Assembly: GCA_028867675.1 (NCBI GenBank)
Contig: JAGWGA010000008.1
Coordinates: forward strand, 1 to 56,117
Reading direction: 5' to 3'
Source of the DNA: Nitrososphaerota archaeon
Lineage (GTDB): Archaea > Thermoproteota > Nitrososphaeria > Nitrososphaerales > Nitrosopumilaceae
DNA length: 56,117 bases
The notes under the pieces are model-generated. The model saw only the letters and a program-made list of their open reading frames with translations. It was not told where the DNA came from and did not search any database. The position numbers were made by a program, and so were the translations under genes. Within the stretch, counting starts at the first letter, position 1. Each line of letters opens with the position of its first letter. Positions 41,526 through 47,918 of the stretch are shown here, one piece after another.

Positions 41526-42176
41526 TTACACCGTTTTCTTCACTGCAAACTTTCTCCGAGTCTTGTAAACTTTCCATGCTGAATGAACTATGATACTTGT
41601 TATTGCAAAAATGGTAATCCATAGTACAAGATCTAATTTTGCAGGGTTCATTGTATTTTGATTATTTCCATTATATGCTACTTCAGACGATGCAGGATTA
41701 TTTGCAGTGATTCCATTTTCACCGTTTGCTTCACTTTCTGTTTCAGCATGTGCGATATTGGTTGAAACTCCTGAAAGCACTGAATTATCGTATGTAGTCA
41801 TGCTTGATGTGGTAGCGTTTGGGCCAGTATTGGATTGGAGATTAATTGAATTTCTGTTTGAAACTGCATTCTGGGCAATAATGGCGGAATTTGTCTGAGG
41901 TTTAATCTGAGACTGTGTTGGACCTTGATTATTCAGAGGTGTTCCTCCTGAACTAGGATTTTGCAAAATTGCCCCATGATGTAGACGAAAGTGATTGTGT
42001 ATGTGATATTGTACTGGAGAAATTGTATTTTGTACTGGTAATTGATTTTGTAATGCTTGCATTTGATTATCATCTGAATCTGCATATGCTGTAGATAATC
42101 CAATGGTGGAAAATGTTAGCACACTAAAAATTACAAGAAAGAGTTTTTTATTTTGGATTAGTTTGTTTATGTTCAT
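41526..42176 (-). CDS. Exported protein with C-terminal TM, operator-controlled
   Basis: A 216-residue exported protein. The ATG at 42176 (MNINKLIQNKK) is chosen because it is 27 bases after a TATA-like TTTATTAA and gives the same operator-to-start spacing as the other two sites; the earlier ATG at 42194 would lie almost on the TATA box. A signal peptide ends TAYA. The middle is low complexity, rich in Asn, Gln and Ser, with a HIHNHFRLHHG histidine cluster possibly binding metal. A TM lies at about 180-200 with a basic tail. Confidence 0.75.
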   Translation of the reverse strand: MNINKLIQNKKLFLVIFSVLTFSTIGLSTAYADSDDNQMQALQNQLPVQNTISPVQYHIHNHFRLHHGAILQNPSSGGTPLNNQGPTQSQIKPQTNSAIIAQNAVSNRNSINLQSNTGPNATTSSMTTYDNSVLSGVSTNIAHAETESEANGENGITANNPASSEVAYNGNNQNTMNPAKLDLVLWITIFAITSIIVHSAWKVYKTRRKFAVKKTV

Positions 42177-42216
42177 TTGGAATCCCTTTGACATTTCTTT
42201 AATAAAGAATTTCTAC

Positions 42217-42236
42217 ACATTGTTCAGTAACAATGT
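42217..42236. promoter_or_regulatory. Operator copy 1: 20-bp palindrome
   Basis: ACATTGTTCAGTAACAATGT has perfect 8-base arms around CAGT. It lies directly upstream of the TATA-like box for the minus-strand gene starting at 42176, its centre about 50 bases from that start. Two further copies lie at 43295 and 47326. Confidence 0.72.
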
Positions 42237-42370
42237 TGTTCAATTGTACAATTTTTTGTGTTGATATTTTCATTACATGTTAACTGAAGTTCTAATTTAA
42301 TTGCCTAACTACTATTCCTACAAATGGAAATGGTAGACAGTATATTATATCATAGAGAAAATAATTTGTC

Positions 42371-42589
42371 ATGAACAAAAAAGTTCTAATAGGAATTGCA
42401 ATTGTGGCGATAGCAAGTGCAATTGCTGTTGTAGGTCTTAAGGGAACTTTGGGAGACAAGGCAGTAGGATTGCCTGGTGAAGACAAGGTGGAAAACACTT
42501 TGAACATTCAAGAAAAAAATACCTCATCAAGTGCATCTCCACAACCAAACACACCTAGTACAAGTGAAGCAAAAGAATCTGGTCCATAG
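42371..42589 (+). CDS. Small secreted or membrane-anchored protein
   Basis: A 72-residue protein with an N-terminal hydrophobic segment (residues 5-22, ISSAI-like) and then a polar tail rich in Ser, Pro and Thr. It may be a membrane-bound small protein with an outer tail. A TATA-like TATATTATATC lies about 26 bases before the ATG, indicating a leaderless start. It is unrecognised. Confidence 0.68.
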   Translation: MNKKVLIGIAIVAIASAIAVVGLKGTLGDKAVGLPGEDKVENTLNIQEKNTSSSASPQPNTPSTSEAKESGP

Positions 42590-42638
42590 TACTGTCATTA
42601 CATGTAGATAACATGTTTGACAATGCCCAATTTTCTCA

Positions 42639-43139
42639 CTAAAATGTGGTCAGTACTCTTGTTTTAAAAGATAAAAGAATTATTGATAGAATCGAGATTA
42701 CAAGTACAACTGGTACAACAGGACCAAACTCTGGAACAGTTGCTGTAATTGCATTGGTTTGTGTAACAACGGATCCATTAATTTTTGCACTGGCTACAAT
42801 ATTGAACTCTCCAGATGTTGCTGTTGTGGGAATCTTAAACTGGAGCACAAAATTACCGTTTTGATCGGTCTGTATGGTTCTAATTATTATCAAGTTTCCA
42901 GTCAAATCTTTGACTTGGATGGCAACAAGTTGTCCCGGCTGGCCGCTTATCGTTCCCTTTAGTTCTACTGTATCGCCTGGAAGATAAGATGCCTTGTCTG
43001 TAGCCAAGGTGATTGTCTGACTCTCCTGTGCAAATGAATTTGAAAATGACAATGTTACTGTAAATACTACAACTAGGAACAAAGATGAAAAAATATTCAT
43101 ATTGTTTCCAGAGCGGTTTGTCAAAAAATAACATTTCAT
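42639..43139 (-). CDS. PEFG-CTERM surface protein with MG2-like domain
   Basis: An exported protein of about 166 residues. The mature part is one Ig-like domain of the macroglobulin MG2 type (LATDKASYLPGDTVELKGTI, then DQNGNFVLQFKIP). It ends TVPEFGPVVPVVLV, a TM and SFKTRVLTTF: a PEFG-CTERM signal. The start is uncertain: 43139 fits a TATA-like CTAAATATC, 43100 gives the shortest signal peptide, and a TTG at 43172 is also open. A related domain occurs near the end of the big repeat protein next door (TDKTSYVPGNTVTITV). Confidence 0.83.
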   Translation of the reverse strand: MKCYFLTNRSGNNMNIFSSLFLVVVFTVTLSFSNSFAQESQTITLATDKASYLPGDTVELKGTISGQPGQLVAIQVKDLTGNLIIIRTIQTDQNGNFVLQFKIPTTATSGEFNIVASAKINGSVVTQTNAITATVPEFGPVVPVVLVISILSIILLSFKTRVLTTF

Positions 43140-43294
43140 AAAATCATCCATGTCCATCTGATATTTAGCCAATCCGAATGATTGTTAACTTAAATTTTAG
43201 CTAGTCTATTTTTTGCATGAGTTTTTCTCTGCATTATTTAGAGTTTGGGTAGAATTGATTAGTTTCCTAATCATTTGTATACAAATCATCACTA

Positions 43295-43314
43295 ACAATG
43301 TTCCAGAACAAAGT
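43295..43314. promoter_or_regulatory. Operator copy 2: 20-bp palindrome
   Basis: ACAATGTTCCAGAACAAAGT matches the palindrome with 6 of 8 arm positions paired. Its centre is about 48 bases from the ATG at 43353, with a TATA-like TTTTTTATTAA between. The adjoining 27 bases, GAACAAAGTGTCACAATT and on to ATTAA, are identical to those beside operator copy 3 when read in the transcription direction. Confidence 0.7.
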
Positions 43315-43352
43315 GTCACAATTTTTTATTAATTCATTTGCATACTGAGAGC

Positions 43353-45560
43353 ATGAATACAAAAATAATATTCATTTTTTCACTTGCAACACTTTTAATT
43401 TTCTCACAGATCGCTCTTCCCAATTCTTTTGCAGATAATACTGGTATTATTTCTGGAACTCCAAATCAAAATGCAACTTCTACAACTGCAACTTCTACAA
43501 CTGCAACTTCTACAACTGCAACTTCTACAACTGCAACTTCTACAACTGCAACTTCTACAACTGCAACTTCTACAACTGCAACTTCTACAACTGCAACGAC
43601 CACATCTGCTCTACCTGTGACAGATCAATCTTCTACTAATCAATCAACTAATTCTTCAGCTCCAACTCAGCCAGCTCCAACTCAATGGTCCAGAGGTTCT
43701 ACATCATCATCTCAAACTCCATCAGATGGTAATACGTCTAACCAGAGTACATCAAATTCTAATAATTATATTCATACACATGGTCAAAATCCTCCATCTC
43801 GAACAACATCGGGACAAAGTCAAATGAATAATAATTCATTTGAAGCAAGAATCCAACACTGGCTCTTGGCTTATCACCAGTCTGCATATGATAACAGAGT
43901 TCCAAGTTACACCTCTCAATATCAACAATATTCTCCATCTCAAACAATGACCAGACCTACCAGTACTACTGTAGCACCAAATTCTGCAACATCAAATGGC
44001 GGTCAAGTAACATTTACTGCAACAGTTACTGATAGTTCTAGCTCTAATACTCCGACCGGCACTATATCCTGGAGTGACGGAGGTGTTGGAGGAACATTTG
44101 GCTCAACTACTTGTCCATTATACTCTGCAAGTTGTACAGTATCATACACTCCGTCTGTAAACTCCCCAAGTTTAGTAACAATTACTGCAACCTATGGTGG
44201 AGATAGTGTACACCAAGCCAGCTCTGGTTCATCATCTCTATCGGTGGATGTAACACATAGTACCTCTACAACTATCACACCAAACCCCGCAACTGTTACC
44301 TCCAATGGGCCAGTTACATTTACTGCAACAGTTACTGATATTTCGGAATATTCCAATACTCCTACTGGAACTATATCGTGGAGTGATGGAAATGCAGGTG
44401 GTGTATTTAGCCAAACTTACTGCTACATATCATCTAGCAGTTGTACTGTATCATACACTCCATCAATAAACTCACAAAATTCTGTTACCATTACTGCAAA
44501 CTATGCAGGAGATGGTATACACCAAGCCAGCTCTGGCACCACATATCTCTCAGTAAATGTAATTCACAGTACGACTACGACTATTGCACCAAACCCTGTA
44601 ACGATTACTTCTGGAAGTACCATCACCTTTACAGCTACGGTACATGATGTATCTAGTCCATATGCCACTTTACTTGGTATTGTATCCTGGAGTGATGGAA
44701 ACGCAGGTGGCGTGTTTAGTCCAAGTACTTGTATTCTTTCAAATAACAACTGTTCATTAACATATACTCCACCATCCAATCTACCAAGTGACATAACCAT
44801 AACTGCAAATTATGCTGGAGATTCGGCACACTCTGCAAGCTATGGGACATCATCGGTGATACCTTCATCATTGACTCCAACATCTTCTCTTACACTAGCG
44901 TCGTATACTTCATCGAACATTCAAACTGACAAGACATCATACGTCCCAGGAAACACTGTGACAATTACAGTAAATCCTCAAGGTGCACAAGAAGGACAAA
45001 ATGTTGCCATACTTGTAACTGATCCATTATCAAATATCGTTGCATCAAGAACAGCTCAAGTTGATTCTCAGGGTAATGCTAAACTTTCAATAGGTTTACC
45101 GTTTAATGCACAAGCGGGCATTTACAGAATTGTTGCAAGTGCCCTTGTTAGTGGGAATTATTTGAATTATCCTGCAGAATTTACGGTGGTATCTCAAACT
45201 TCCCAGTCTTCTGGAGTATCTATTGTATCTATACAACCAACAGACCAACAAGGAGACAAAACTGTAACAGCATTTAGCAAAGGTACCACTAGTTATGCTA
45301 AAGTTGTCTTGTCTTCAAATTCCACCCAGACTGCTCTCATTACAGTCAACCTTGTGGGCTCTGATGGGACTAGTCTAGGTGTAGGCTCTGTCAAGACATC
45401 GCTTGGTGCTGGAAATAGTGAAATTGTAATATCGTTTTACATTCCAAGCAATGCAAGCATTGGGACTGGGAACATCTATGCCGATGCATATTCAGACTGG
45501 CCAAGCAATGGTGGAATACCTCTCACAGCAGAGACTTCATCTTCTGTAAGTATTGGATGA
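43353..45560 (+). CDS. Large exported repeat protein with Ig-like domains
   Basis: A 735-residue secreted protein; the ATG at 43353 is the start (a TTG five codons earlier is open but unneeded). After a signal peptide (to about FADN) comes a stalk of eight identical ATSTT units, then a polar Ser/Thr/Asn/Gln-rich region, then three Ig-like repeats of about 95 residues (VAPNSATSNGGQVTFTATVTD, ITPNPATVTSNGPV, IAPNPVTITSGST types), an MG2-like domain (TDKTSYVPGN) and a last beta domain. It has no anchor, so it may be secreted or bound to the S-layer. Expression is probably controlled by operator copy 2. Confidence 0.86.
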   Translation: MNTKIIFIFSLATLLIFSQIALPNSFADNTGIISGTPNQNATSTTATSTTATSTTATSTTATSTTATSTTATSTTATSTTATTTSALPVTDQSSTNQSTNSSAPTQPAPTQWSRGSTSSSQTPSDGNTSNQSTSNSNNYIHTHGQNPPSRTTSGQSQMNNNSFEARIQHWLLAYHQSAYDNRVPSYTSQYQQYSPSQTMTRPTSTTVAPNSATSNGGQVTFTATVTDSSSSNTPTGTISWSDGGVGGTFGSTTCPLYSASCTVSYTPSVNSPSLVTITATYGGDSVHQASSGSSSLSVDVTHSTSTTITPNPATVTSNGPVTFTATVTDISEYSNTPTGTISWSDGNAGGVFSQTYCYISSSSCTVSYTPSINSQNSVTITANYAGDGIHQASSGTTYLSVNVIHSTTTTIAPNPVTITSGSTITFTATVHDVSSPYATLLGIVSWSDGNAGGVFSPSTCILSNNNCSLTYTPPSNLPSDITITANYAGDSAHSASYGTSSVIPSSLTPTSSLTLASYTSSNIQTDKTSYVPGNTVTITVNPQGAQEGQNVAILVTDPLSNIVASRTAQVDSQGNAKLSIGLPFNAQAGIYRIVASALVSGNYLNYPAEFTVVSQTSQSSGVSIVSIQPTDQQGDKTVTAFSKGTTSYAKVVLSSNSTQTALITVNLVGSDGTSLGVGSVKTSLGAGNSEIVISFYIPSNASIGTGNIYADAYSDWPSNGGIPLTAETSSSVSIG
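43473..43592. repeat. Eight identical 15-bp tandem repeats
   Basis: The unit GCAACTTCTACAACT is repeated eight times without a base change, then a degenerate ninth unit. Each codes for ATSTT in the surface protein. The perfect identity points to recent expansion, and 15-bp steps keep the frame. So the length of the stalk may differ between cells. Confidence 0.92.
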
Positions 45561-45640
45561 TGAACATTTTCTGCCAAATTTTACTAAAATTAATTTAACA
45601 TCTACTCATTTTGTATCAATCCCAGTCCTAATAATTTAAA

Positions 45641-46114
45641 ATGAAATTGTTATCTTACATGCAAGAATCTGCTGTTAGGGAAATAATGACGGAATTTGTT
45701 CAGACTATTCCAACTGGGTCTACTATAATGGAGGCAGCTCAAATAATGACAAAGGGAGGAATCGGATGTGTCGTTGTTACTGAGAAGGGAAATCCAATAG
45801 GAATGTTAACTGAGAGAGATATTGTATCTAAAGTAACATCACAGGATCTAAATTCTTCCAAAGTACTTGTGGAAAAAATAATGTCACGACCAATCATAAC
45901 TATTGATCCAAACGAGATTATTGATGAGGCGGCACTTATGATGTCCATCTATGGTATTAGGCGTCTCGTAGTTGTTGGAAAAGATGGTATATTGTCAGGA
46001 ATTATTACTACCACAGATATTGCATCATGGATTTCAAGAAACAAAGATTACAAAAATAATGCTCTAAATGCTATAGTAAAACTACATGATACAGAACATA
46101 TTCCGTATCAATAG
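45641..46114 (+). CDS. CBS-domain pair protein
   Basis: A 157-residue protein with two CBS domains, the typical stand-alone pair. The first begins AVREIMTEFVQTIPTGSTIMEA and has GIGCVVVTEKGNPIGMLTERDI; the second begins KIMSRPIITIDPNEIIDEA with IRRLVVVGKDGILSGIITTTDI. It likely binds adenine nucleotides and regulates partner proteins. Its position between a surface protein and an MscS channel suggests no clear partner, but the channel is convergent and close. Confidence 0.93.
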   Translation: MKLLSYMQESAVREIMTEFVQTIPTGSTIMEAAQIMTKGGIGCVVVTEKGNPIGMLTERDIVSKVTSQDLNSSKVLVEKIMSRPIITIDPNEIIDEAALMMSIYGIRRLVVVGKDGILSGIITTTDIASWISRNKDYKNNALNAIVKLHDTEHIPYQ

Positions 46115-46133
46115 GATGTAATTGAATTTACAT

Positions 46134-46955
46134 TCATGTGTTGGTATTTGATTTTTTTATTATTGTGATACCGCCATCGAAAATAGACTTGTTTGCAATA
46201 ATTATGTCACGGTCTCCATCTAGAATGGTTGTAAATCTTGGAGTTATTTTTACAACAGTGCCAGAAAATTTTTCTGAACTAGTTGACAATTCTATTCTAT
46301 CTCCTTCAACAAAAGGCAGTTCCGCCTTTAGTGGCCCTTCTCTTAGAATACGTACGTTTCCCTGAATTATTGCAGAATTTGGAACAAAATATTCTGTTCC
46401 TTGTTCTGTATCGATTTTTGTATAAAGCATGGTTATGTCAATAATCTCTCCATGCACGTTGTCATTTGCTATGAATACTGAATCTCCTATCTTTGCAGGA
46501 AATGTGGTAAGCATTAGTGCACCAGAAAAAATATTTCCAACTATGGTTGAAAATCCAATACCTACAACTATTGCTGCAACTCCACCTCCAATGAGAATTG
46601 TTTGAAGCTGTACATTCCATATGTATAGCAGTATTAGCGAGTCAACTAGTGAAATAATTACAATTGAAAAAAATGAGATGCTTGAAGTAAAATGACTTGG
46701 AATCTTTGTTGTAGCATTTTTCAAAATACTTCTAATTGCAGAAATTATTACAAATGATACTGCAATTGTGATTAATGTCTCTCCTATGATGATGTGATTG
46801 TGTTTTAATCCAAGGTCTGGAGCAAAAAAAATCTCAAATAATGCAATGCTTACTCTGACTGCAGCAATTAGTAGTATTGTCTTTAATACTAGATATTTGA
46901 TGTCTTTACCAAGTGATTTTTTATTTGGATCTAGATTCTGGTCTTGTTTAGTCAA
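46134..46955 (-). CDS. MscS-family mechanosensitive channel
   Basis: A 273-residue membrane channel. Three to four hydrophobic segments are followed by the pore helix and the GVAAIVVGIGFSTIVGNIFSGALM motif of MscS and the beta domain GDSVFIANDNVHGEIIDI. The C-terminal part (ELPFVEGDRIELSTSSEKFSG) looks like a second small beta domain instead of the usual MscS cytoplasmic end. Such channels open under membrane tension to release ions after osmotic shock. It is the second-to-last gene before the small HTH regulator on the same strand. Confidence 0.92.
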   Translation of the reverse strand: MTKQDQNLDPNKKSLGKDIKYLVLKTILLIAAVRVSIALFEIFFAPDLGLKHNHIIIGETLITIAVSFVIISAIRSILKNATTKIPSHFTSSISFFSIVIISLVDSLILLYIWNVQLQTILIGGGVAAIVVGIGFSTIVGNIFSGALMLTTFPAKIGDSVFIANDNVHGEIIDITMLYTKIDTEQGTEYFVPNSAIIQGNVRILREGPLKAELPFVEGDRIELSTSSEKFSGTVVKITPRFTTILDGDRDIIIANKSIFDGGITIIKKSNTNT

Positions 46956-46999
46956 TACTGGTTATATTTTCTTCAAAGTATTTGTATTTATCAAATACC

Positions 47000-47287
47000 T
47001 TAGATTCTGATCTTTAATGCCTGGATGTATTCCTCAAATCTCTGTAGTTCTCTAAAAAATATTATTCCTTTTTCTGTGATGGTGTAGACATGATTTCGCT
47101 TGTCCTTTCTTGACTCCATTAGACCAAAACTAATCAATTTTTCACACTTTTCAACTGCGGTATAGTGGGACAAGTTTGCAACTCTTGCTATGCTTGAAAT
47201 TCCTATTCCTTGATTGCCGTATTCTGTTGTTGCCTGCAGAATATCTGAGATTATTCCAATCTCTGCTCTATACTGTTGTTTTGACAT
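47000..47287 (-). CDS. Small winged-helix regulator, likely of the shared operator
   Basis: A 95-residue winged-helix protein of the archaeal HTH_45 type. It begins AEIGIISDILQATTEYGNQG, has the recognition region ISSIARVANLSHYTAVEKCEKL and the wing KRNHVYTITEKG, and ends with a helix for dimerisation. The start follows a TATA-like box and operator copy 3, which it probably binds itself. The same operator is upstream of 42176 and 43353, so it is the best candidate for the controller of this regulon. It is divergent from the membrane protein at 47388. Confidence 0.88.
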   Translation of the reverse strand: MSKQQYRAEIGIISDILQATTEYGNQGIGISSIARVANLSHYTAVEKCEKLISFGLMESRKDKRNHVYTITEKGIIFFRELQRFEEYIQALKIRI

Positions 47288-47325
47288 GAGGTGAGTTGGT
47301 GATTTGGTTAATAAAAAATTGTGAC

Positions 47326-47345
47326 ACTTTGTTCACTAACAAAGT
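47326..47345. promoter_or_regulatory. Operator copy 3: 20-bp perfect palindrome
   Basis: ACTTTGTTCACTAACAAAGT has perfect 8-base arms. It is between the divergent HTH_45 and membrane-protein genes, its centre about 48 bases from the HTH start. The 27 bases beside it on the HTH side match those beside copy 2. A TATA-like CATTATAATC (about 47359) serves the other gene. Confidence 0.75.
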
Positions 47346-47387
47346 TAGCTAAGGCATTATAATCCCCTGTTATACTGTTTTTTGAAG

Positions 47388-47918
47388 ATGAGCATAACTG
47401 TAAAAAAAGATAAGAAAATTTTGGTCTTATCCTTTGTAGCTGCGGCTGCTACTGTAATTGCTGGAATAATGCATCTACAAATGACTCCTGGTTCGTTATC
47501 TCATAATCTGGGAGAAGGAATTTTGTTTCTAGTTGGTGGCATACTCCAAGTCTTTTGGGCAGTTCCTGTCATAAAACGATGGGGAAGAATATGGCAAGTA
47601 ATTGGGATTGTAGGAACTACAGTATTTTTCATTTTATGGTTCTCAGATAGACTCCATCTCATGCCTGAAGGAAATGAAATGCATGGTGGCAACTTTCAAG
47701 GTCCGTCACACTCGGGTAATTTCTCCGGAGGTAATGTGCCTGAAGGAGGATTTTCAAGAGGTGGTCATGCACCTGTGGGAATTGGGGCCCAAATACTTAG
47801 ACAGCCAATTGAGATATGTCAGATCATATTCATTGGATCGTATATTTCTCTAAGTGTATTGCTTTCAAAACAGAAAAAAGCAGACAATAAGTCGCCTGAA
47901 AAGGTTACTGAAAAATAA
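47388..47918 (+). CDS. Four-TM membrane protein with Gly/His-rich loop
   Basis: A 176-residue membrane protein; the ATG at 47388 is used (a TTG two codons earlier is possible). Hydrophobic helices lie at about residues 14-30, 42-58, 70-86 and 137-156. The loop between the last two is rich in Gly, His and Ser (MHGGNFQGPSHSGNFSGG, and SRGGHAPVG) and may bind metal. It is divergent from the HTH regulator across operator copy 3. The family is not recognised. Confidence 0.75.
   Translation: MSITVKKDKKILVLSFVAAAATVIAGIMHLQMTPGSLSHNLGEGILFLVGGILQVFWAVPVIKRWGRIWQVIGIVGTTVFFILWFSDRLHLMPEGNEMHGGNFQGPSHSGNFSGGNVPEGGFSRGGHAPVGIGAQILRQPIEICQIIFIGSYISLSVLLSKQKKADNKSPEKVTEK

Follow-up and report, generated by a model that had tools for sequence, protein, structure and literature searches.

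What are the three 20-bp palindromes that stand ahead of genes in this archaeal contig, and which protein would bind them? The stretch of DNA analysed here (the window) is 56,117 nt long and is the entire contig C213 of a 1.74-Mb genome; the host archaeon is Candidatus Nitrosotalea, an acid-soil ammonia oxidiser. A sequence-only reading of the window had taken the palindromes to be shared promoter elements of a local regulon and had proposed that a small winged-helix protein encoded beside one of them is the regulator.

The palindromes and the genes behind them

Most of the local description was borne out. The pattern ACWWTGTTNNNNAACAAWGT matches exactly at 42217, 43295 and 47326 and had 0 matches in 100 dinucleotide shuffles of the window. 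All three copies had been described as palindromic, which applies to copies 1 and 3, the latter being perfect, but copy 2 is imperfect. A TATA-like sequence, TTTATTAA, lies 10 nt beyond each palindrome, as had been noted, and ATG is the start codon at each of 42176 (–), 43353 (+) and 47287 (–), at distances of 50.5, 48.5 and 48.5 nt, respectively, from the palindrome centre, where 48–50 bases had been given. Copies 2 and 3 share exactly the 27 identical bases reported earlier, GAACAAAGTGTCACAATTTTTTATTAA, and this identity ends in the TATA box. The features are as follows, with the TATA boxes assigned from sequence.

42217..42236, – strand: putative operator copy 1, ACATTGTTACTGAACAATGT on the – strand, made of unit 1 AACATTGTT and unit 2 AACAATGTG with a 13-bp period
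42199..42206, – strand: TATA-like box TTTATTAA, 10 nt after operator 1
41526..42176, – strand: target gene 1, whose product is exported and has a single TM segment
43295..43314, + strand: putative operator copy 2, imperfect palindrome ACAATGTTCCAGAACAAAGT
43325..43332, + strand: TATA-like box TTTATTAA of operator 2
43353..45560, + strand: target gene 2, coding for a large exported protein that combines an MG2-like domain with three Ig-like repeats of the Big_3_5 type
47326..47345, no strand assigned: putative operator copy 3, perfect palindrome common to two divergent promoters
47308..47315, – strand: TATA-like box TTTATTAA of the winged-helix gene wHTH-A
47000..47287, – strand: target gene 3, winged helix wHTH-A (PF14947 HTH_45, Sso10a-related), the regulator proposed earlier
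47357..47363, + strand: TTATAAT, probably the TATA box for the divergently transcribed membrane gene
47388..47918, + strand: target gene 4, multi-pass membrane protein with a His/Gly-rich loop

The sequence-only reading also placed copy 3 before the divergent membrane protein with a His-rich loop, and a role for it there is supported by relatives, where the operator is kept 42–43 nt before the same gene. The product of target gene 1 resembles the PepSY-like exported proteins found behind other sites (47% over 53 aa to the one at locus L184), with the similarity limited to the N-terminal ~50 aa. Relatives of target gene 2 stand behind the same operator in 9 genomes. Within target gene 2, positions 43476-43599 hold about seven near-perfect 18-bp tandem repeats (ACTTCTACAACTGCA...) that encode a Thr/Ser/Ala-rich stretch after the signal peptide, a candidate for length variation. 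On the opposite strand, a gene at 42639-43172 (–) encodes an exported MG2-domain protein whose domain is similar to that of the neighbouring Ig-like protein (44% over 79 aa); it starts ~120 nt from operator 2 and may share it.

To describe the operator we aligned 67 promoter-proximal sites, which gave ACNWTGTTMNTGAACAANGTGTCRCAATTCTTTATTAA. In this alignment the site lies immediately upstream of BRE/TATA at a fixed spacing (columns 21-38), and the TATA column of the operator 1 promoter is conserved throughout. The dyad is carried by the invariant columns; at the variable columns (3/18 and 4/17) pairing is no more frequent than expected among the 67 sites, and covariation of the arms was dropped as proof of the dyad. 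Sites in other genera, where it often occurs singly, reveal a 13-bp dyad as the basic unit, GTAACNNNGTTAC, also written (G)TAACNNNGTTAC. In Nitrosotalea two units overlap with a 13-bp period and the 20-bp palindrome is their junction. The predicted operator would consist of two overlapping 13-bp dyads, AACNNNGTT-NNNN-AACAANGTG, and its end would be 10 nt short of the TATA box. The commonest spacing from operator to start codon is exactly 38 nt, and the TATA centre lies 24 nt ahead of the commonest ATG position. In archaea, a TATA box at such a distance from the ATG implies a leaderless transcript, and these promoters are probably leaderless. The fixed distance to the start codon would then follow from a fixed operator–TATA distance together with leaderless transcription.

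Spread of the motif and its target families

The pattern was searched for in the host genome, and a refined form of it in relatives. With ≤2 mismatches allowed, the loose 20-bp pattern shows no enrichment in its own genome (27 matches vs 30 for the reversed control). At ≤1 mismatch it occurs at 10 places there, of which three are in the window, six lie within ~9 kb on contig C44 (locus L016) and one is inside a coding region. The refined motif AACNNTGTTNNNGAACAANGTG at ≤1 mismatch gave 159 matches in 35 of the 37 genomes of the genus, with 5 for the reversed control. It is also present in the sister genus (g6) and is almost absent elsewhere in the family and class. We took 60 regions, and these together with the window and C44 hold 88 sites. 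At 62 of them (70%) the first ORF start codon is 29–51 nt downstream, compared with 10% for random positions. A promoter-like site at C174:3454 has no clear ORF at the contig end. In a 3.2-Mb GC-rich member of the family (G023), a stretch of 6 kb (L260, G023:C1:458266-464004) has five tandem-unit sites that are nearly identical, CTAACYTTGTTAACTCACAATG, apparently in a repeated gene array.

Each genome has only a handful of sites, and in complete genomes they are scattered round the chromosome (e.g. G058 and G008). Because of this scatter, the term local regulon does not apply; the second cluster on C44 and the occurrence in 35 of 37 genomes also speak against it. Seven target families recur behind the sites, each in 5–15 genomes.

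PepSY-like exported proteins: 25 sites, 15 genomes
Large Ig-like exported proteins: 13 sites, 9 genomes
wHTH-A: 9 sites, 8 genomes, all at 38 nt
MacB-type ABC: 8 sites, 8 genomes
76-aa protein: 8 sites, 8 genomes
DUF6659 protein: 7 sites, 7 genomes
His-rich membrane protein: 5 sites, 5 genomes

Every target in the window falls within one of these families, and the link between operator and promoter is preserved before orthologous genes in other species. The earlier claim that the palindromes are shared, fixed-distance promoter operators of the exported protein, Ig-repeat protein and winged-helix genes is supported. The cluster on C44 comprises a second winged helix (wHTH-B), two PepSY-like exported proteins, DUF6659, a MacB/FtsX-type ABC operon, the 76-aa protein and membrane proteins. 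In the same locus, a run of N at L016:12516-12614 interrupts the gene of a His-rich tandem-repeat exported protein and reflects either an assembly gap or masking. On the sequence evidence we think it probable that the palindromes are promoter operators and serve a regulon for the Nitrosotalea cell envelope that is dispersed and extends across the genus, with wHTH-B as the presumptive binder.

Two winged helices as candidate binders

The second HTH_45 winged helix, wHTH-B (L016:4245-4577; C44:31247-31576), is present in 36 of the 37 genomes of the genus and has a segment, NQTxLLSYCGLNxxKH, that is strongly conserved across genera. When wHTH-B loci were picked by protein similarity alone, the 20-bp core was found at 15 of 16 in Nitrosotalea and the sister genus, and the 13-bp unit at all 13 loci tested in other genera (23 units vs 0.8 expected). 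In those genera wHTH-B heads a conserved module with a small membrane protein, a unit at the 3' end of wHTH-B and a PepSY-like exported gene with units before its TATA box; the module sometimes includes a MacB-type operon or homologues of the window membrane protein (target gene 4), which adjoin wHTH-B. Outside the genus, 11 of the 12 genomes with a tandem site at ≤1 mismatch have a wHTH-B match, a set that includes paralogues (hypergeometric P ~5e-4). One motif-bearing genome (G142, 78% complete) gave no wHTH-B match. The distance from the site to the start of wHTH-B itself is variable (68–98 nt). In the AlphaFold model (pLDDT 80), wHTH-B folds as a winged helix of the MarR/PadR-like type and has a helix at its C terminus; the best PDB matches of the model are MarR and PadR/LmrR structures (TM 0.5-0.65). 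Pfam MarR/PadR sequence profiles were below cut-off, and a sequence search of solved structures gave weak matches only for both winged helices. Another paralogue, wHTH-C, was rejected as binder, with the core at none of 21 loci. A single operator-like site with two mismatches (L018:1440; C158:44939) precedes an exported 334-aa gene beside wHTH-C in the host genome; no such site was seen beside wHTH-C in other genomes.

The earlier proposal that the window winged helix binds the shared operators fares less well. The wHTH-A family occurs in 120 of 121 Nitrosopumilaceae genomes, most of them without the motif, and only about half of the genus carries the motif at the wHTH-A promoter. In favour of the proposal, wHTH-A is an HTH_45 winged helix, the site lies exactly 38 nt ahead of the ATG in all nine orthologues recovered by site (8 genomes), which also fits autoregulation, and further orthologue loci carry it. 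Elsewhere in the genus, however, wHTH-A homologues are without a site though the motif persists: eight high-quality, motif-bearing genomes (G079, G108, G067, G127, G135, G118, G138 and G085) have homologues at only 43–62%, and none of the recovered loci has the motif. Nor was any 13-bp unit found around wHTH-A homologues at 29 loci. We thus regard it as unlikely that wHTH-A is the protein bound at the three palindromes and at its own promoter while wHTH-B regulates something else or co-binds. Since the units track wHTH-B loci and not wHTH-A loci, wHTH-B is the better candidate; linkage and co-occurrence make it the likely operator binder, and wHTH-A is more likely a regulated target than the main binder. 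A broader reading, which we hold tentatively and at somewhat less than even confidence, is that the PF14947 protein wHTH-B, from a family known mainly for chromatin proteins, is throughout Nitrosopumilaceae a sequence-specific master regulator of an envelope module made up of PepSY-like exported proteins, His-rich membrane proteins and a MacB-type ABC transporter. It would act through overlapping 13-bp dyads in tandem, with the regulon expanded in acidophilic Nitrosotalea and a second winged helix placed downstream.

Proposed mode of action and comparison with known systems

We propose that a dimeric winged helix, most likely wHTH-B, occupies the tandem dyads directly upstream of BRE/TATA and, once bound, would most likely activate by aiding the binding of TBP or TFB. 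The wHTH-A gene would be switched by the operator as a target and is perhaps a second-tier regulator. We lean toward activation over repression because the site is just upstream of BRE, as in published archaeal activators. Such activators bind there and recruit TBP or TFB; archaeal repressors overlap the promoter or sit downstream (PMC5512572). Similarly, TrmBL1 activates from an upstream site and represses from a downstream one (PMC4706686). A hint of metal or envelope stress comes from the ABC module and from exported segments rich in His/Met, and there is a weak case for an envelope- or metal-related signal. By eye, genes near wHTH-B in other genera include a heavy-metal ATPase of the CopA type that is accompanied by an Lrp-like regulator (L263, G106) and DoxX-like genes (L267, G007; L270, G018), each a possible hint to the signal.

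The same regulon and binder could operate in the opposite sense, with a repressor blocking access of TFB/TBP until released by a signal. MarR/PadR-like folds are often repressors, and the operator ends 10 nt from the TATA box and abuts the BRE region. We consider this rather unlikely, as the site does not overlap TATA and, with its rigid spacing, lies upstream of BRE where archaeal activators are placed (cf. TrmBL1; PMC4706686). Rigid spacing, and the conservation of BRE/TATA columns along with the palindrome, could also indicate a core-promoter subtype for a particular TFB/TBP pair in place of a regulator-specific operator. However, the dyad symmetry is upstream of BRE, single 13-bp units adjoin wHTH-B in other genera, and the few sites per genome are tied to one functional set, all of which leave this reading very improbable. 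The 27 bases identical in copies 2 and 3 might point to coincidence or to the leftovers of a repeat or mobile element. We give this almost no credence; the identity stops at the TATA box, and in 35 genomes the sites retain their position and dyad amid differing flanks and genes.

In the open literature that we searched we found no regulator–operator pair described for these genes in ammonia-oxidising archaea, and the only promoter motif found for a related archaeon was that of copper-limited Nitrososphaera viennensis, TTCSGSMTTTGWACYANT, 35–70 nt before starts (PMC7785015). That motif likewise is shared by promoters of exported genes in an ammonia-oxidising archaeon, but it is unrelated in sequence to the operator here, and a link was rejected for this reason. 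The present system provides a definite operator, one candidate protein by name and a list of targets conserved in the cultured N. devanaterra and N. bavarica. In vitro tests of it need no genetics, and it gives a handle on how acidophilic archaea adjust their cell surface.

Both winged helices share the Sso10a/PF14947 profile family, wHTH-A scoring 36.3 bits and wHTH-B 28.4 bits (Pfam cut-off 25.5); with NCBIfam Sso10a_fam the two score 31.7 and 28.4 bits, below the cut-off of 60. Sso10a proteins have been described as chromatin-organising (PMC4941522), whereas a sequence-specific operator is predicted here and the wHTH-B model is closest to MarR/PadR winged helices. The glycolytic motif of TrmBL1 in Thermococcales is, like ours, a palindromic operator at dispersed promoters under a global regulator that activates from upstream (PMC4706686). 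It differs in its regulator (TrmB family with a sugar-binding domain), its sequence (TATCAC-N5-GTGATA) and its role in sugar metabolism. Repeated short sites directly upstream of BRE/TATA, served by a small regulator, are also known for EarA at fla of Methanococcus maripaludis and for Ptr2 at rubredoxin 2 of M. jannaschii (PMC5512572). In both the motif is different and the targets are archaellum or redox genes; Ptr2 is of the Lrp family, unlike the candidate here, and EarA uses four 6-bp sites at one operon, whereas in Nitrosotalea the tandem dyad spans 20 bp and recurs at many scattered genes. We take what is described here to be a regulator–operator system probably of the archaeal upstream-activator type, with a candidate regulator that had no earlier link to such a role in the literature searched.
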